Origin: Betaproteobacteria bacterium
GTDB taxonomy: Bacteria > Pseudomonadota > Gammaproteobacteria > Burkholderiales > SG8-39
Assembly (NCBI GenBank): GCA_022340285.1
Contig: JAJDOG010000082.1
Span: forward strand, 31,195-95,194
Length of the DNA stretch: 64,000 nucleotides
Direction of reading: 5' to 3'
The position numbers and the translations under genes were made by a program. This document shows positions 24,236 to 43,243 of the stretch, piece by piece; within the stretch, counting starts at the first letter, position 1, and the number at the start of each line of letters is the position of its first letter. The notes beneath the pieces were generated by a model. That model saw nothing but the letters and a program-made list of their open reading frames with translations, did no database searches and was not told where the DNA came from.

Positions 24236-25408
24236 TCAAGCGGCTTGCAACCGGCTCCACCAATCCTGGTACGCGCGCATGTTCTTCGGGAAGACGTTCT
24301 GCCATGCGTTGCCGGCAACGGCGTAGCGTTGGGCCTTGCGTGCCATGATGTCCTTGACGTTCTGGCGCGTCGCGGCATCGAAATCGGCAGGATGAGCATC
24401 GAGGTAGACGTCCACGCCCTTCATCTGGGGCGCAAAGCCCAAGCCCGACACGGTCCGCGCGCCGAACCACGGCGAGAGATAGACGTTCGCGAGGCTATAG
24501 AACGCCGCATCCATGCCGCGCTGCCGTCCGCCCTTGGTGAGCATCACCACGTTGTTCCAGGTCTGGTGGCCCTCCTTCATGGTGCCGTAGCGGACGTCGA
24601 CGCCCTTCTTGCGCGCGACGAGCTGAATCGGCTCCCAGCACGACGACAACACGACCTCCTTGCTCGCGAGCAGGTCCACGCCGTTCTGAAACCCGTCCCA
24701 GAACGTCCGGAACTGACCCTTCTTCTTGTAGCCGATGAGAAATTCGCAAACTGCCTTCACCTCCCCGGGGGACATGTCGGCCGCGTCCTTGATCTCGACC
24801 TTCCCGCTCTGCTGGAGATAGATGGCCACATTGGTGAGCGTGGGGCCAAAGTCGTTCTGCAGGGCGACGCGTCCCTTGAACTGCGCGTCGAACATCACGC
24901 CCCAACTATCTGGATGGAAGCCGAGCGCCTCGTAGTTGTACGCCATGGAATCTGCGTTGGAGATGTAGGGCACGGCGTACACCTTGCCGCCGTAGCGCAG
25001 CGTGTCGGCGGCGGGAGCTCCTTCGTGGTAGACGTCGATGATGTTCTGCCAATTCGGGATGCGGCTCGTGTCGAGCTCGACGATCGCCTTGTTTTCGGCG
25101 AGCGCATCCTCCATGCCGCCGCCGTTGTCGGTCAGTGCGTCGAAGAGCTTCTGCCCGTCCCCGACCACCATCTTCTGGATTGCCTCGTCGGCGCGGGCGC
25201 TCTTGGCGGTGTTCTTGATCTGGATCTTCGCCTGGGCCGCCATGGCGCTGAAGTCCTTGGCGCCGACCTTGGCGATGCCGGGCGCCCAGTAGCGCAGCGC
25301 GTCCCCCTCCGCGGCCGAAACGCCGGGGATACGCCCTAGCGCTGCCGCCGCCGCGATGCCGCCCAGGCTGTTGATGAACATTCGACGCGAGAATTCCTGC
25401 TGATTCAT
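24236..25408 (-). CDS. ABC transporter substrate-binding protein (PotD-like), Tat-type leader
   Basis: MNQQEFSRRMFINSLGGIAAAAALGRIPGVSAAEGDALRYWAPGIAKVGAKDF...; SRRMFI resembles a Tat motif. Confidence 0.9.
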   Translation of the reverse strand: MNQQEFSRRMFINSLGGIAAAAALGRIPGVSAAEGDALRYWAPGIAKVGAKDFSAMAAQAKIQIKNTAKSARADEAIQKMVVGDGQKLFDALTDNGGGMEDALAENKAIVELDTSRIPNWQNIIDVYHEGAPAADTLRYGGKVYAVPYISNADSMAYNYEALGFHPDSWGVMFDAQFKGRVALQNDFGPTLTNVAIYLQQSGKVEIKDAADMSPGEVKAVCEFLIGYKKKGQFRTFWDGFQNGVDLLASKEVVLSSCWEPIQLVARKKGVDVRYGTMKEGHQTWNNVVMLTKGGRQRGMDAAFYSLANVYLSPWFGARTVSGLGFAPQMKGVDVYLDAHPADFDAATRQNVKDIMARKAQRYAVAGNAWQNVFPKNMRAYQDWWSRLQAA

Positions 25409-25533
25409 GGTCTCCTCCTTGTCGTGATACGCGGCCAGTGCCGCGTGAATCCGCAATCTACCACGGGGATCTGCGCGCCTCCGGAAGACGATGTCGCGAT
25501 CGGGCGCGTGACCGAGGCCCAATCTGTCGTCGT

Positions 25534-26277
25534 CTAGTGACCCAGGATCTGGCTGAGAAACAGCTTGGCGCGCTCGGTTTGCGGCGCCGCAAAAAACGCA
25601 TCCGGACGCGCCGCCTCGACGATCTCGCCCTGGTCCATGAACACGACCCGGTCAGCAACGGTGCGCGCAAAGCCCATCTCGTGGGTGACCACCACCATCG
25701 TCATGCCCTCCCGGGCGAGCTCGACCATCACGTCGAGCACTTCCTTGATCATCTCCGGATCGAGCGCGGAAGTCGGCTCGTCGAACAGCATCAGTTTCGG
25801 TCGCATCGCGAGCGCCCGCGCGATCGCGACGCGCTGCTGCTGTCCGCCCGAGAGCTGTCCGGGATACTTGCCCGCCTGCTCGGGGATCTTCACCCGCTCG
25901 AGCAGCTCCATCGCGAGCGCATCGGCGTCTTTCTTCGGCAGCTTGCGCACCCAGATCGGCGCGAGCGTCAGGTTCTCGAGCACCGTGATGTGCGGGAACA
26001 GGTTGAAGCTCTGGAACACCATCCCGACCTCGGTGCGGATCGCCTCGATCTTGCGTAGGTCGTCGCCGAGCTCGATGCCGTCGACGATCACCGTGCCGGA
26101 ATCGTGCGCTTCCAGCGCGTTGACGAGGCGAATGAGCGTCGACTTGCCCGAGCCCGACGGGCCGCACACGACGATTTTTTCCCCCTTGGCGACCGAGAGG
26201 TCGATGTCCTTGAGGGCCTGGAACGCGCCGAACCACTTGCTCACCCTGCACATCTCGATCATCGGTTGGCCGCTCAT
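25534..26277 (-). CDS. aapP: Polar amino-acid ABC transporter ATP-binding protein (AapP/GlnQ-like)
   Basis: [54 protein letters not shown]. Confidence 0.93.
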
Positions 26278-27344
26278 CGCCGCTGCCCCGGTTCGGGTTT
26301 TGCGAGCTCGCGCTCGAGATTCTGACTGTAGCGCGACATCGCGAAGCAGAACGCGAAATACACCAGCGCGGCGAAGAGATACGCCTCGACGCCGAAGCCG
26401 CTCCACGCCGGCTCGGTGAGCGACACCTTGATCGTCGAGAGCAGGTCGAAGAGCCCGATGATCAGCACCAGCGACGTGTCCTTGAAGAAGCCGATGAACG
26501 TGTTGACCAGCGGCGGAATCGAGATCCTGAGCGCCTGCGGCAGAATGATGAGCAGGGTCTTCTTCCAGTACGAGAGCCCGAGCGCATCGGCCGCTTCGTA
26601 CTGGCCGCGCGGGATCGCCTGCAGCCCGCCCCGCACCACCTCCGCGAGATAGGCGGCGGCGAAGAGAATCATCGCGATCTGCGCGCGCAACAGCTTGTCG
26701 ATGGTGACGCCGGCCGGCAGGAAGAGCGGCAGCATCACCGAGGCCATGAATAGGAGCGAGATGAGCGGCACGCCCCGGATGAGCTCGATGAATCCCACGC
26801 ACAGACCCTGGATCACCGGCATGCCTGAGCGCCTGCCGAGGGCGAGCAGGACCGACAGGGGAAACGCGATCGCGAGTCCGAACGTCGAGAGCAGCAGCGT
26901 CAGGATGAGGCCGCCCCACCGCTCGTTCTCGACGTAGGGCAGGCCGAGCACGCCGCCCCACATCAGCACGCCGACCACGACGAGGCCTACGATCCAGATC
27001 GGCACGAGCCGCCAGCTCCAGAACCGGCGGAGCGCGCTCGCGATCCAGAGCCCGATCAGAACGGCACAGGCGAGCGCCGGCCGCCAGTGCTGGTCGTACG
27101 GATAGGTGCCGAACAGGATGAAGCGGTGCTTGTCGGCGATGAACGCCCAGCACGCCCCTTCGCCCGCGGCGGCACGGCAGGCCTTCGAGTCGGGCGCATA
27201 CCAGATTGCGTCGAGGAATGCCCAGTCGATCAGCGGCGGCACCGCGCGCCACAGGAGCCACAGTGCGCCGATCGTCAGCAGCGCGTTCGGCCAGCTCGAG
27301 AAGAGATTCGCGCGCAGCCAGCGCAAAATGAAGGCGTTCGTCAT
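26274..27344 (-). CDS. aapM: General L-amino-acid ABC permease (AapM-like)
   Basis: 356 aa; [70 protein letters not shown]; 4-bp overlap with aapP. Confidence 0.92.
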
Positions 27345-27466
27345 CCTGTAAAAGAACTCCGCGATGGCGCAGGAGGGGATATACCAGGGGGAGTTCCCCC
27401 GTGTTCGTTTAAGGGGCGATTGCGGCGCACTCTTATTGCGTTGATCGAAATCACGGGCACTGACAT
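27341..27466 (-). CDS. Putative 41-aa leader/small protein coupled to aapM
   Basis: [41 protein letters not shown]; its TGA overlaps the aapM ATG. No homology visible; could be chance. Confidence 0.25.
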
Positions 27467-27480
27467 GGCTAGTTCCCTCA

Positions 27481-28635
27481 CTAGCGCTCTGTCAGAGCGA
27501 TGCGTGCGTTGTACCAGTTCATGAAAGCCGAGATCGACAGCGAGATCGTCAGGTAGACCGCCATGATGATTGCGATGCCCTCGATCGCCTGACCGGTCTG
27601 GTTCATCGTGGTGTTCGCGATCGACACCAGATCGGGATAGCCGATCGCCACCGCGAGCGAGCTGTTCTTGGCGAGATTGAGGTACTGGCTGGTCAACGGC
27701 GGCACGATCACCCGCAGCGCCTGCGGCAGAACGACGAGCCGCATGGTGAGGCCGCGGCGCAGGCCGAGCGCGTACGCGGCCTCGAACTGGCCGCGATGGA
27801 TCGCGAGCACCCCTGCGCGCACGATCTCGGCGATGAAGGATGCGGTGTAAGTGATGAGTCCCGCCGTGAGTGCCGCGAATTCCGGTGCCAGCACCGCGCC
27901 GCCGGAAAAGTTGAAGCCTTCGAATGCCGGCACGCTCATCGTGGTGGGAGCGCCCCCGACGAGCCAGGCGATCACCGGGGGAGCGATGAGCAGGGCGAGC
28001 GCCACTTCCGATACGGGGGGGCGTCGGCCCGTCTTCGCCTGGTGCTTGTCGGCCCACCACGCGAACGCGATCGCTGCAACGATTCCCGCGGCAAGGGCGC
28101 CAATCACCCAGGTGTATGCCGCGTCCCACGCCGGCACTGGAAAGAAGATGCCGCGGTTGGCAAGATAGACGCCGGGCAGCGGCTCGATTGCCGCGCGCGG
28201 TCCGGGAAGGTTCTCGGTGATGATCGCGTACCAGAAGAAGAGCTGCACCAGCAGCGGCACGTTGCGCACGAACTCGACGTAGGCGGCGGCGAGCTTTGCC
28301 ACCAGCCAGTTGCGGGAGAGCCGTGCAAGGCCGATGAGGGTGCCCAGCACCGTTGCGGCGACGATGCCGATCAGCGCGACGCGGAAGGTGTTCGCCAGGC
28401 CGACCGTGAGCGCGCGAAGGTATGTGTCCGCCGCGCTGTAGGGGATCAGCGTCGTCTCGCCGATCTCGAAGCCTGCCTCGCGCGACAGGAATCCGAAGCC
28501 GCTGGCAATATGCCGCGCCTCGAGGTTGGCGAGCGTGTTCGAGACCAGGTACCAGCCGATCAGAACTGCTGCCACGATCGCCCCGGCCTGGTACGCGACG
28601 GCGCGCAGCTTCGGATCGCCGGCCGAGAGCCTCAT
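27481..28635 (-). CDS. aapQ: General L-amino-acid ABC permease (AapQ-like)
   Basis: MRLSAGDPKLRAVAYQAGAIVAAVLIGWYLVSNTLANLEARHIASGFGFLSREAGFEIGE...; EFVRNVPLLVQLFFWYAII; APEFAALTAGLITYTASFIAEIVRAGVLAI. Confidence 0.94.
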   Translation of the reverse strand: MRLSAGDPKLRAVAYQAGAIVAAVLIGWYLVSNTLANLEARHIASGFGFLSREAGFEIGETTLIPYSAADTYLRALTVGLANTFRVALIGIVAATVLGTLIGLARLSRNWLVAKLAAAYVEFVRNVPLLVQLFFWYAIITENLPGPRAAIEPLPGVYLANRGIFFPVPAWDAAYTWVIGALAAGIVAAIAFAWWADKHQAKTGRRPPVSEVALALLIAPPVIAWLVGGAPTTMSVPAFEGFNFSGGAVLAPEFAALTAGLITYTASFIAEIVRAGVLAIHRGQFEAAYALGLRRGLTMRLVVLPQALRVIVPPLTSQYLNLAKNSSLAVAIGYPDLVSIANTTMNQTGQAIEGIAIIMAVYLTISLSISAFMNWYNARIALTER

Positions 28636-30194
28636 CAGGCCTTGAGCGCGACCACGTTGAGTGCGGGAACGGGCTTGAGCAGCCCCTTGAGGGTGAGTGA
28701 TCCGACTTCCTCGGTGTCGACCAGGTGCTCGACCGCACCTGCCAGGCGGGACGATACGAGGATCTGGCCACCCTTGGCTTCGCCGCATAAGCGCGCGGCC
28801 AGGTTCGTTACCGTGCCGATCGCGGCGTAGTCCCGGCGGCCCTCGAAGCCGATCGCGCCGATGGTCGCGTAGCCCTGTGCGATTCCCACGCCGAGCGCGA
28901 GATCCCAGCCCTGCTTCTTCCAGCCCGCCGCAAGTCTGGCAACGCACTCCCGCATCGCCAGCGCCATGCGCACCGCACGCTCGGCATGGTCCGGCACCTC
29001 CATCGGGTCGTTGAAGAAGATCATCATGCCGTCGCCGGTGAATCGTTCCAGCGTGCCCTCGTGCGCGAGGATGAGCTCGCCCATCGCGGCGTGGTATTCG
29101 CCCAGCACGCTCATGATCTCCTCGGGCTCGGCCGTCTCGGCGAACGACGTGAAGCCGCGGAGGTCGAGGAACACGACCGTCACCTGGCGGCGGTGCGTGC
29201 GCAGCGGGTCTTCTGCGCCGCCGCCCACGATCAGCTCGGCAAGCTGCGGCGAGAAGAAGCGCTTGAGGCGACCCAGCCGCTCGAGATGCGACACCCCCTC
29301 CTGGACGCGTTGCTCGAGCGTGCGGTTCCATTCCTCGAGCTCGGCAGCGTGGCGCACATCCTGGTCGCGCAGGCGCTTGCGCTCGAGGCAGGCGCTCACC
29401 CGGGCGCGCAGGATGACCGGACTGAAGGGCTTCGGCAGGAAGTCGTCGGCGCCGAGCTCGATGCAGCGCGCGACGCTTTCATCCTCGTCGAGCGACGAGA
29501 TCATGAGCACGGGGATGTCGCGCAACCGCTCATCCGCCTTGAGACGCTTCAGGACGTCGTAACCGTTGATGTCCGGCATCATCACGTCGAGCAGCACGAG
29601 ATCCACGGCCGCGGTCTCGAGCGTCGCGAGCGCCTCGGCGCCGCCCGCGGCCCGCAGGACCGCGAACCCTTCGCGCCCCAGGCGGCGCGCGAGCATCTCG
29701 CGGTTCTCGGGGTTGTCGTCCACCACGAGAACCACCCCGGCCCCCGATGCTGCGGCATGGCCGGCGACCGTCGGCAGTTCCGGCGTCGCCTTCGAAGCGG
29801 CGCGCTCGGTCACGCGCTGGGCGAGCCCGCCTTTGACGAGCAGGGCAAGGTGCTCTGCCGCGCCATTGATTCGACCGGCGTCCTTGGCGGCTTCCTCGGC
29901 GCCGCTGGCAACGAGTTCATCCTTGATGGCCTGGCTCGCCGCGAGGATGCGCTCGAGGGGCGAAGTGAGCTGCGCGGCGAGATGCTGCGCGGACTCGAGC
30001 GAGCCCGCGGCGGCCGGGCCGAGCAGCTCGTTGATCAGGCCGAGCAGCGCCTGGGCGTCGTCGAGCACCGCGCGGAGCCGCGGGGCGAGCTCGGCCCGCC
30101 CGCCGTCCTCGATCAGCATCTCGGTGTAGCCGATGATGTGATTCAGCGGCGTGCGCAGCTCGTGACGCAGCTGGGCGAGGGTCTCGCGATCCAT
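28635..30194 (-). CDS. HisKA(DHp)-REC-class III adenylate/guanylate cyclase fusion without HATPase
   Basis: [22 protein letters not shown] (H-box), VVLVVDDNPENREMLARRLG...DLVLLDVMMPDINGYDVL...PVLMISS...FLPKPFSP (REC), TVVFLDLRGFTSFAE...FTGDGMMIFFND...YAAIGTVTNLAARL (cyclase). Confidence 0.92.
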   Translation of the reverse strand: MDRETLAQLRHELRTPLNHIIGYTEMLIEDGGRAELAPRLRAVLDDAQALLGLINELLGPAAAGSLESAQHLAAQLTSPLERILAASQAIKDELVASGAEEAAKDAGRINGAAEHLALLVKGGLAQRVTERAASKATPELPTVAGHAAASGAGVVLVVDDNPENREMLARRLGREGFAVLRAAGGAEALATLETAAVDLVLLDVMMPDINGYDVLKRLKADERLRDIPVLMISSLDEDESVARCIELGADDFLPKPFSPVILRARVSACLERKRLRDQDVRHAAELEEWNRTLEQRVQEGVSHLERLGRLKRFFSPQLAELIVGGGAEDPLRTHRRQVTVVFLDLRGFTSFAETAEPEEIMSVLGEYHAAMGELILAHEGTLERFTGDGMMIFFNDPMEVPDHAERAVRMALAMRECVARLAAGWKKQGWDLALGVGIAQGYATIGAIGFEGRRDYAAIGTVTNLAARLCGEAKGGQILVSSRLAGAVEHLVDTEEVGSLTLKGLLKPVPALNVVALKA

Positions 30195-30196
30195 CG

Positions 30197-30570
30197 TCAG
30201 CCGGCCGCTTTGCGTCCCAGCAGCGCTTCGATCTTGCCGAGCAGGCGCTCCATCTCCACGGGCTTCGTATCGAAGTCGTCGACGCCCGCCGCGAGCGCTT
30301 TCTCGCGGTCGCCCTCCATCGCATGCGCCGTCAGCGCGATGACCGGAATGCCCTGCGTGGCGGGAGACGCCTTGATCTGGCGCGTGGCCTCCCACCCGTC
30401 GACGCCGGGCAGGCTCATGTCCATCAGGATGAGCGCCGGGGATTCGGAGGCGGCCAGTGCGATACCCTGCTCGCCGTCTACCGCCATCGCGACCTCGTAG
30501 CCGCGCCGCACCAGGCGGCGCGAGAGCATGTCGCGGTTCATCTCGTTGTCCTCGACGAGCAGGATCTTGG

Positions 30571-30574
<4 letters not shown>
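30197..30574 (-). CDS. Single-domain response regulator (receiver)
   Basis: [28 protein letters not shown]...[23 protein letters not shown]...[17 protein letters not shown]...[11 protein letters not shown]. Confidence 0.94.
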
Positions 30575-39576
<9,002 letters not shown>

Positions 39577-39613
39577 TACTCCACGAGTTGACGCGCATGT
39601 CGAGCAGCCCGAC

Positions 39614-41152
39614 TCATGCTGCAGCCCCCAGCATGGCGTAGAGTGCGTCGAGTTGCGCGCGGCGCTCCGGGGCAAGGTATGAGAAGTTGGCGCCCCGGTT
39701 CTCGATCTCGGAGTAGTGTGGGGACACCTCGCGTTCGATGTCCGCGCGAACGCTGGCGAGGAGCTCGCGCCGCTCGCCGGCCAGGTCGCCGACGATACGC
39801 TGCGCCGTAGCGGTATCGCCGCGCGCGAGGAAGAACGTCGCGAGCTGCACCTGGGCGCGCCGCACGCCGGGCAGGCTCTGCGCGCCCGGCTGATCGATTC
39901 CGAGCAGGATGTCGAGCAGCGCGTCGCGCGCAGTCACGTTCGCAACGGCCAACTCGACCAGCTGGGCGACGTCGTAGGCGGCGACCTCGAGCAGGAAGGG
40001 GAGACCGCTCGCCTTGGCCAGGCGCCCGTAGAACCGGATGCGGCTTGCCACCTCGAGCGCCGCCGGCTCGTCGCCGCGTGCGAGCAGCGTCTCGCCGAGC
40101 ATGCGGTACTGGTGCAGCACGTAGTAGGCGGTGCGCACATCCGACCCGTTGATCGACGCGCGCAGGTAGCTGTTGAAGGCACGCTGGCAGAGCACCACGA
40201 GCTCCGGTCGCTCCGCCCCGCAGAGCTCCGCAAGCCGACGGGTGTGGATCGCGATCATGCCCGCCACGTCGCGCGCGCTATTGACCGCATCGATGAACAG
40301 CGCGTGATACTGGCGCAGGATTTTCGACTCGAACCAGCTCCGCGTTCGGGCGACCTCTTCGAGCGCGGTCTGAGACATCGAGACGAAATCCGGGTCGCGG
40401 GCGATCGCGTCGTCGACGCGAAACCACTCCTCGGGCAGGGCGCCGCGCAGCCGCTCGACGTCCGTGAGCAACGTCGCGAGCGCCTCGATGGCGGACATCG
40501 CGATGGCGCGGTCGTAGCTGTTCATGGCGCCGCGCGCAACGTCCTCGAGCTCCTCGATGCTTTCGATCACGGCGAGCTCGGCGGCGTGCGGATCGCCCGT
40601 GACTGCATCTTGCACCTCGTTCAGCGCGGCGGCACGGATGCGGCGGATGACGCTGAGCGGTGAGACGAAGCGGAACACGTAGCCGAAATACGGGACGAGC
40701 GCGATCACGCACGCGGTCATCAGGCCCATGGCCAGGAGGAAACCGCCTCGAGGAACGATCGGCGCGTCGTGCACCTCCCCGGTGAGCACCAGCGCAAGCC
40801 AGATGCAGAGCGCCGTCGTGAGCACGAACAGCGTCATCACGGCCTGGTTCACGCGATCGCGCACGAACAGCGTGGTGACGCGATGCGTATAGCGGGTCGC
40901 GGCGAGTTGCACGACGATCGCGACCACAGTGATCAGGATTGCGAGCATGCCCGCGACGACCTGCGCCGCCGCGATGAGGACCGCGAGCGCCGCCGACTGG
41001 TCGAGCGTCTCGAGCCAGCGCAGCGGATGGCGCCACGCCGCGCTGCCCTCGAGCCAGCTCGCCAGTGCGAGAAGTGCTATGGAGAGCGCGAGCAGCCACG
41101 CGAAACCGCGCAGTCCGCCGCCGCGATCGCGTCGCTCGCCTTGCTGCGTCAT
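39614..41152 (-). CDS. DUF2254 family predicted membrane protein
   Basis: 512 aa; [70 protein letters not shown] is DUF2254-like. Confidence 0.88.
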
Positions 41153-41209: not shown

Positions 41210-42232
41210 CTACCGGATCGGCGGCGAGTACATCAGTCCGCCTTTCGTCCAGAGATTGTTGATCCCGCGATCGAATCCCAGCGGCTTGAGATTGACGTCG
41301 AAGACCTCGCCGTAGTTGCCGACCTGCTTGACGATGTTGAACGACCAGCGATTGTCCAGGCCGAGCATCTTGCCGATGTCGCCGGTCGCCCCGACGAAGC
41401 GCTGGATCGAGGGATTGGTGCTCGACAGGTTCTGGTCGATGTTCTTAGACGTGAGCCCCAGCTCTTCAGCTTCGAGCATCGCGAAGAGCGTCCACTTGAC
41501 GACGTCGAACCACTTGTCGTCGCCGTGCCGCACCGCGGGCCCGAGAGGTTCCTTCGAAATCACCTCGGGTAGGATCACGTGGTCCGCTGGGTTCGGCGCC
41601 CGCGAAGCGCGGACCGCGACCAGGCCCGAAACGTCGGTCGTGTACACATCGCAGCGCCCGGCGAAGTACGCGTTCAGCACCTCCTCGAGCTTCTCGATCA
41701 CCACCGGCTTGAAGGTCATCCCGTTGGCGCGGAAATAGTCCGCGAGATTGAGCTCGGTGGTGGTGCCCGGTTGCACGCAAACGGTGGCGCCGTTCAGCTG
41801 CTTGGCGCTCGTCACGTTGAGCTTCTTCGGCACCATGAAGCCCTGGCCGTCGTAGTACAGTACCCCCGCGAAATTCAACCCGAGGCTCGTGTCGCGGCTT
41901 GCCGTCCAGGTGGTGTTGCGCGAGAGGACATCGATCTCGCCGGACTGAAGCGCGGTGAAGCGCTGCTGCGCCGTGAGCGGCGTGAAGCGCACCTTGGTCG
42001 GGTCGCCGAACACCGCTGCCGCCACCGCCCGGCACAGGTCGACGTCGATGCCCTTCCACTCGCCCTTCGAGTCGGGTTGCGAGAATCCGGCGAGCCCGGT
42101 GTTCACGCCGCACTGCACATAGCCTTTCGCCTTCACCGCATCGAGCGTGGACTGGGCCGTGGCGCGATCGGGCGCTGCGGCAAGCAGCATGCACGTCGCA
42201 CCAACGACCAACGCGAGCTTTCTCATCTTCAT
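41210..42232 (-). CDS. aapJ: General L-amino-acid ABC substrate-binding protein (AapJ-like)
   Basis: Signal peptide, STLDAVKAKGYVQCGVNTGLAGFSQPDSKGEWKGIDVDLCRAVAAAVFGDPTKVRFTPLTAQQRFTALQSGEIDVLSRNTTWTASRDTSLGLNFAGV. Confidence 0.95.
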   Translation of the reverse strand: MKMRKLALVVGATCMLLAAAPDRATAQSTLDAVKAKGYVQCGVNTGLAGFSQPDSKGEWKGIDVDLCRAVAAAVFGDPTKVRFTPLTAQQRFTALQSGEIDVLSRNTTWTASRDTSLGLNFAGVLYYDGQGFMVPKKLNVTSAKQLNGATVCVQPGTTTELNLADYFRANGMTFKPVVIEKLEEVLNAYFAGRCDVYTTDVSGLVAVRASRAPNPADHVILPEVISKEPLGPAVRHGDDKWFDVVKWTLFAMLEAEELGLTSKNIDQNLSSTNPSIQRFVGATGDIGKMLGLDNRWSFNIVKQVGNYGEVFDVNLKPLGFDRGINNLWTKGGLMYSPPIR

Positions 42233-42358
42233 GCCTCCTCGGGGATGTTGCCGGGAACTCCGGACGGGCCAGTCTAGTCCCGCAGCACGCATCGCGGCAA
42301 CCGGACCCGATCCGCCCGGCTTCGCGGTAGGCTTCGCCTCTCGCCAACGGAGAAGACC

Positions 42359-43243
42359 ATGCCCCACGCGACTGCGAGCGACGGCGTCCGGCTCTACTAC
42401 GAGGAGGCCGGCAGCGGCGCCACCGTCATCTTCGTGCACGAGCTCGCCGGCGATCACCAGAGCTGGGAGCCGCAGATGCGCTACTTCTCACGACGTTACC
42501 GTTGCATCGCCTACAATGCGCGCGGTTACGTGCCCTCGGACGTTCCCGAGGACGCCGCGAGTTACTCGCAGGAGCGCGCCCGCGACGACGTGATCGCGGT
42601 GCTCGATCATCTGAAGGTGGACAAGGCGCACGTGGTCGGGTTGTCCATGGGCGGCTTCGCCACGCTGCACGTGGGGCTCGCGTATCCCGACCGCGCTCGC
42701 TCGCTCGTCATCGGGGGGTGCGGCTACGGCGCGCAGCCGGGCGCGGAGGAGACCTTTCGGGCCGAATGCGAAGCCGCCGCGCGCCGTTTCGAGACGGACG
42801 GTGTCGCCGCGGCAATGAAGTACGCCGAGGGTCCGACCCGGATTCGCTTCCAGAACAAGGATCCTCGTGGATGGCGGGACGCGGCCGAGGCGTTCGCGGG
42901 CCGGCCGCTGGAGGGCGTGGTGCGCACGCTGCGCGGCGTGCAGATGCGCCGGCCGCTGCTCTACCAGCTGGTCGAGCCGATGCAGCGGCTCGACGTTCCC
43001 ACGCTCGTGATGACCGGCGACGAGGACGACCCGTGCCTCGAGGCCGGCATCCTGCTGAAACGCAACATCGCACGCTCCGGGCTCGTCGTGATTCCGCGCT
43101 CGGGGCATGCGATCAACCTCGAGGAGCCGGACGCGTTCAACGCGGCGGTTGCCGACTTTCTCGCCGCGGTGGACGCCGGGCGCTGGGAGCGGCGCGATCC
43201 GCGGTCGGTCGCGGGCGGCATCCTCGGATTCGAAAAGAAGTGA
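42359..43243 (+). CDS. Alpha/beta hydrolase
   Basis: VHELAGDHQSWEPQMRYFSRRYRCIAYNARGY; HVVGLSMGGFATLH nucleophile elbow; PRSGHAINLEEPDAFNAAV. Confidence 0.93.
   Translation: MPHATASDGVRLYYEEAGSGATVIFVHELAGDHQSWEPQMRYFSRRYRCIAYNARGYVPSDVPEDAASYSQERARDDVIAVLDHLKVDKAHVVGLSMGGFATLHVGLAYPDRARSLVIGGCGYGAQPGAEETFRAECEAAARRFETDGVAAAMKYAEGPTRIRFQNKDPRGWRDAAEAFAGRPLEGVVRTLRGVQMRRPLLYQLVEPMQRLDVPTLVMTGDEDDPCLEAGILLKRNIARSGLVVIPRSGHAINLEEPDAFNAAVADFLAAVDAGRWERRDPRSVAGGILGFEKK

Follow-up and report, generated by a model that had tools for sequence, protein, structure and literature searches.

The window, the whole 64,000-nt stretch of DNA that was analysed, carried a compact run of genes on its minus strand. 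A hybrid kinase of unusual size was followed by a stand-alone receiver, a receiver-cyclase gene and a transporter gene. Their features, in the order of reading on that strand, were:

30571–39675, minus strand: giant hybrid kinase with about 14 GAF domains, HisKA, HATPase and two receivers; 3034 aa from a putative TTG start
31855–32058, minus strand: DHp (HisKA) of the giant kinase, residues 2540–2607 (Pfam)
31375–31716, minus strand: HATPase of the giant kinase, residues 2654–2767 (Pfam)
30652–31314, minus strand: the two C-terminal receivers of the giant kinase
30197–30574, minus strand: stand-alone CheY/DivK-like receiver with a GTG start, whose first 4 nt overlap the kinase stop and whose end lies 2 nt before the ATG of the DHp-cyclase gene
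28635–30194, minus strand: tandem-DHp, receiver (REC) and class III cyclase gene, 519 aa
30021–30188, minus strand: DHp hairpin 1, residues 3–58, with putative phospho-acceptor His11 (Pfam HisKA, E 7.6e-14; AlphaFold2 helices 3–29 and 34–57)
29790–29990, minus strand: degenerate DHp hairpin 2, residues 69–135, with Ala74 in place of His (DHp HMM, Pfam, AlphaFold2 helices 69–97 and 100–135)
29397–29732, minus strand: receiver domain, residues 155–266, with D159/D160, D203, S233 and K255 (Pfam Response_reg, E 2.8e-29)
29262–29420, minus strand: long helix linking receiver to cyclase, residues 259–311 (full-length AlphaFold2 model)
28683–29189, minus strand: class III cyclase domain, residues 336–504, with Asp344, Asp388, Asn464, Arg468 and Arg383 (Pfam Guanylate_cyc; alignment to CyaB 3r5g and others)
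27481–28635, minus strand: ABC-transporter permease (BPD_transp_1), whose start codon overlaps the cyclase stop (TGATG)

The cyclase frame ran from an ATG at 30194 to a TGA at 28637–28635. These were exactly the limits, 28635–30194, given in a previous reading made from the letters alone (the sequence-only reading). That reading had also described an intact H-box, a receiver with its D and K, and a cyclase with metal-binding Asp motifs, and all three were recovered. Hairpin 1 scored 51.9 bits against Pfam HisKA (PF00512; cut-off 26.9), and its H-box, HELRTP, contained the phospho-acceptor His. The receiver was complete, with the acidic pair D159/D160, the phospho-acceptor Asp203, Ser233 and Lys255. 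Typing of receivers by the FATGUY motif is limited to some families (PMC9981736).

The cyclase domain matched Pfam Guanylate_cyc with an E value of 1.5e-20, and alignment placed the metal-binding residues at D344 and D388 and the transition-state residues at N464 and R468. Domains of the same fold have solved structures (3r5g and 2w01 among those aligned). The Lys that precedes FxGD in class III adenylate cyclases was replaced by Arg383 (LERFTGD). This position is Lys in Pseudomonas aeruginosa CyaB (3r5g) and Glu in the 2w01 cyclase, and the Arg therefore does not predict ATP or GTP as the substrate. The domain is predicted to make cyclic nucleotides.

No ATPase domain accompanied the H-box. 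Pfam found no HATPase_c in the 519-aa protein up to an E value of 0.1, and phmmer with the HATPase of the neighboring kinase found no match. Neither the N-terminal nor the full-length AlphaFold2 model contained an alpha/beta sandwich before the receiver. A cryptic HATPase in the 97 residues between HisKA and the receiver was thus rejected, in line with the sequence-only reading, which had seen none. The protein does not classify as a histidine kinase, which has HATPase_c in the same chain. Likewise, no Pfam Hpt match was found in the giant kinase or in the cyclase protein.

The same reading had the H-box leading directly to the receiver. This did not hold, for the intervening 97 residues, in which no Pfam family rose above its cut-off, contained a second DHp-like hairpin. 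An HMM built from 24 kinase DHps matched it with 13.6 bits, a score reached by none of 500 shuffled sequences. The DHp of the neighboring kinase matched it in phmmer (iE 2.8e-3), and HisKA was the best, though weak, Pfam match of the stretch by itself (E 0.045). Ala74 occupied the position of the phospho-acceptor His in an otherwise homologous hairpin.

AlphaFold2 predicted four helices for the N-terminus, at residues 3–29, 34–57, 69–97 and 100–135 (pLDDT 82, pTM 0.74, from an alignment of four sequences). The full-length model reproduced them, followed by a low-confidence linker (128–151), the receiver, the helix 259–311 and the cyclase, with a mean pLDDT of 76.8 and a pTM of 0.45, at which the placement of the domains is not reliable. 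When the four-helix model was searched in the PDB with Foldseek, only generic helical bundles and no match with E < 0.001 were returned; this null is uninformative, since a model of one chain cannot be matched to a dimer. We interpreted the model to suggest that the N-terminus resembles a DHp bundle formed within one chain and bearing one phospho-acceptor. The two hairpins would then pack into one intramolecular bundle, as opposed to a domain-swapped dimer.

To follow the second hairpin beyond the window, 23 proteins of the same layout from several phyla were compared, the window protein included. Nine of them, the window protein among these, were found without a tandem profile. The other eight were L079 from a Rokubacteria metagenome-assembled genome, L080 from Pedosphaera, L081 from Acidimicrobiia, L159–L162 on rhizobial plasmids and the order relative L075/L203. 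Profile A1, which was built from the first full-length relatives and contained both hairpins, gave the remaining 14 within the phylum.

The DHp HMM detected two hairpins in 23/23, a count that arises partly by selection because 14 were found with a two-hairpin profile. The nine found without it all fitted the pattern. The His-less hairpin beat 500/500 shuffles in 22 of the 23 proteins; in L195, which kept both His, the hairpin to be tested against shuffles was chosen by the motif filter only. Pfam HisKA by itself rose above cut-off on 2 of 10 His-less hairpins (L081 and L201). The evidence for hairpin 2 was modest in the window alone and strong in the relatives, and by these profile comparisons we take the His-less hairpin to be a real DHp homologue.

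Exactly one His was present in 22/23 tandem proteins, the exception being L195. In 16, a group that included Sinorhizobium meliloti, hairpin 1 had Gln and hairpin 2 had the His. In six, including the window protein, the His was in hairpin 1 and hairpin 2 had A, A, R, L, G or F. A tree of the tandem plus receiver, which was midpoint-rooted and had several long branches, contained a branch that split the two arrangements with support of 99/98. Each group has lost a different His, that of hairpin 2 in the window's group and that of hairpin 1 in the S. meliloti group, a pattern expected if a single His per chain is retained. In the His-bearing hairpin, an acidic residue followed the His in 22/23, and position +4 was T, S or N.

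A tree of the receiver plus cyclase placed 18 DHp-bearing proteins on one side of a branch (97/91), with the window protein beside L079 at 73% identity. L079, the closest receiver-cyclase, lies outside the window's own family. Horizontal transfer and loss within the family are both possible explanations. Among 399 genomes of the phylum, a survey at E 1e-22 found the layout in seven proteins apart from that of the window, and in one order the layout occurred in 6/197 genomes at 1e-28. No other clear case appeared among 98 members of the window's family. The supposition that every relative of the window cyclase carries a DHp was rejected, as none of the inspected frames from its family or order had an H-box. 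The genome of the window also encodes a paralogous receiver-cyclase (L002, G000:C111) that lacks a DHp and shares 46% identity; its contig carries many kinases and receivers.

The effectors behind the tandem DHp-REC varied. They were class III cyclases of two subtypes, PP2C (L203, L194), a PAS-kinase (L195) and a DUF4062-like domain that fell below cut-off (L196). The last two proteins may define further branches of the module.

The gene neighborhoods were similar. A hybrid kinase (DHp-HATPase-REC-REC) lay near the gene in 20/23 and a CheY-like receiver in 21/23; no hybrid kinase was found near L080, L081 or L196 in the stretch examined. The three-gene set is common to several unrelated bacteria, including the legume symbiont S. 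meliloti. The sequence-only reading had pointed to the adjacent giant kinase, and the two genes proved to lie in a compact operon with counterparts in other bacteria. From gene order and domain content, the window gene evidently encodes the output component of a cassette that recurs and comprises kinase, CheY-like receiver and effector.

The pSymB cassette of S. meliloti (WKL29147.1, WKL29146.1, WKL29145.1) has the gene order and the module of the window, namely hybrid kinase, CheY-like receiver and tandem DHp-REC-cyclase. The same gene is at NC_003078.1 367812–369371 in strain 1021 and is not annotated as a tandem DHp. It differs from the window gene in having the His in hairpin 2, with the His of hairpin 1 replaced by Gln, and a class III cyclase of another subtype.

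Known systems resembled the window protein only in part. In CyaC of Spirulina and Anabaena, phosphotransfer to the receiver reportedly controls the cyclase (Kasahara and Ohmori 1999, listed among the references of PMC1183210). CyaC, like the window protein, has HisKA, then a receiver, then a class III cyclase in one chain. However, CyaC has its own HATPase and autophosphorylates, whereas the window protein has two DHp hairpins with one His, no HATPase, and a kinase in the neighboring gene. It thus lacks the HisKA-HATPase-REC-cyclase chain of the CyaC type.

In ChpT and Spo0B, a DHp four-helix bundle acts as a phosphotransferase without autokinase activity; both are homodimers with two His per bundle, and ChpT has a Bergerat-like second domain (PMC3433190). 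The window module, on the other hand, has both hairpins in one chain, has one His and is fused to the receiver that it would serve. Hairpin 1 is followed by a second hairpin and then the receiver, and not, as in a dimeric DHp of the ChpT type, by a C-terminal ATPase-like domain. EL346, a monomeric HWE kinase with a DHp-like domain, functions without dimerising (PMC10359499). It resembles the proposed module as a histidine-kinase protein whose DHp-type domain is active without dimerisation. In contrast to the window protein, it is an autokinase, its LOV sensor covers the dimer face of the DHp, and its domain is HWE/HisKA2 and not HisKA.

The second hairpin also changed how the input is to be read. 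The sequence-only reading had proposed a phosphotransfer or dimerisation input on the cyclase. Its broad idea, that a phosphotransfer input lacking a kinase of its own sits on a receiver-cyclase, was retained. The dimerisation part was not, as that reading had missed hairpin 2, which shifts the interpretation toward a four-helix bundle that is probably built from a single chain and has one His.

DHp domains are normally homodimers, in which the hairpin of one chain pairs with that of a second. HPt domains are monomers of a family different from DHp, with one His per chain. The tandem DHp is, by Pfam, not a member of the HPt family, though it may work like one. We favored, at a probability of roughly 0.48, a reading in which it acts in an HPt-like manner in a three-gene His-Asp cassette, with His11 fed by a receiver and passing the phosphoryl group to Asp203 for control of the cyclase.

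The two hairpins of one chain would fold together as a four-helix bundle in which only hairpin 1 has a phospho-acceptor. With no ATPase, the protein could not autophosphorylate and would therefore work like an HPt. The donor to His11 would be either the CheY-like protein or one of the giant kinase's receivers, and His11 would hand the phosphoryl group to Asp203 in the receiver of the same chain. This receiver would act, via the long helix, on the cyclase dimer and so set the cyclic-nucleotide output. Since the cassette has two kinase receivers and a stand-alone receiver, and no Pfam Hpt match in the kinase or the cyclase protein, the simplest route would run from the kinase His to a receiver Asp, then to His11, Asp203 and the cyclase. 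We infer this route, together with the direction and sign of control and the product of the system.

His11 might instead be phosphorylated directly by the HATPase of the giant kinase and then pass the group to Asp203, which would make the pair a split CyaC, as the sequence-only reading had suggested. The adjacent kinase has the HATPase, the H-box HELRTP is intact, and the acidic residue beside the His was kept in 22/23. However, the ATPase domain of a canonical kinase works on a DHp within the same dimer, and hairpin 1 seems to have an internal partner of its own. Direct phosphorylation would also leave the two kinase receivers and the CheY-like protein without a role. We considered this improbable, and a His-Asp-His-Asp relay through the single His at least as plausible.

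L205 and L206, the receiver-cyclases closest to the window protein within its own family, belong to the same cassette but carry no tandem DHp. This suggested that the kinase can reach this type of cyclase without the DHp, and that the module is optional. The kinase may then phosphorylate Asp203 directly, and the tandem DHp may be a phosphatase or docking domain that removes the phosphoryl group or holds the receiver off. The nearness of the window and L079 cyclases to those of L205 and L206 in the receiver-plus-cyclase tree is consistent with this. So is the His-bearing hairpin, which keeps H-E/D-x-x-T/N/S, the pattern used by HisKA phosphatases. Yet the His is often dispensable for HisKA-type phosphatase activity, and exactly one was kept in 22/23; moreover, L198–L200 have S in place of T/N at +4. 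Such a brake was judged unlikely. The motif would suit a phosphatase just as well as phosphorylation in trans, and the module is optional, and for these reasons the HPt-like reading is held no more firmly.

The module could also be a relic of a duplicated kinase fragment, serving only as a dimerisation or spacer bundle before the receiver-cyclase, with no phosphotransfer. Hairpin 2 is degenerate, and relatives without the module exist. But loss of both H-boxes would be expected in a relic, and one was retained across several phyla and effector types. This explanation appeared very improbable.

A broader proposal built on the HPt-like reading is tentative and somewhat doubtful. The tandem DHp may represent a distinct class of phosphotransfer domain, a duplicated DHp that forms a single-chain bundle, has lost one His from either hairpin and carries one phosphoryl group. 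It would be a plug-in that connects hybrid kinases to effectors of various kinds (cyclases, PP2C, a kinase, DUF4062-like), and would mark a route from the dimeric DHp to an HPt-like module. If this is true, the tandem single-His DHp is a natural intermediate between DHp and HPt and a portable phosphorelay adaptor, and large multi-GAF kinases are linked to cyclic-nucleotide signaling.

The architecture is already in public records, annotated for example as 'adenylate/guanylate cyclase domain-containing protein', and the protein itself is thus not new. Among the matches listed for NCBIfam there were only receiver models and no whole-protein family model for the window protein. The literature searched, mostly outside subscription journals, contained no account of the cassette or of the tandem DHp with a single His, the S. 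meliloti copy included. A recent study of cAMP in S. meliloti tested many cyclase deletions (PMC13001267), but its gene names could not be linked to the pSymB cassette. The copy in this species makes the module testable in a model organism.

Other features of the locus were observed. The giant kinase has about 14 GAF domains in a row (31900–39000; 14 stretches each for GAF, GAF_2 and GAF_3). Before this array, its frame opens with a transposase-type HTH (39400–39675; HTH_23 / HTH_Tnp_1, residues 53–86, near or below cut-off). About 60 nt of a frame for a DUF2254 membrane protein (39614–41152) are shared with the beginning of the kinase frame. The cassette lies inside an apparent ABC uptake locus (24236–28635 and 41210–42457). 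Upstream of the giant kinase is a solute-binding protein of family 3 (SBP_bac_3), and downstream are an ABC ATPase and two permeases of the BPD_transp_1 type. The solute transported by this locus may be the signal.
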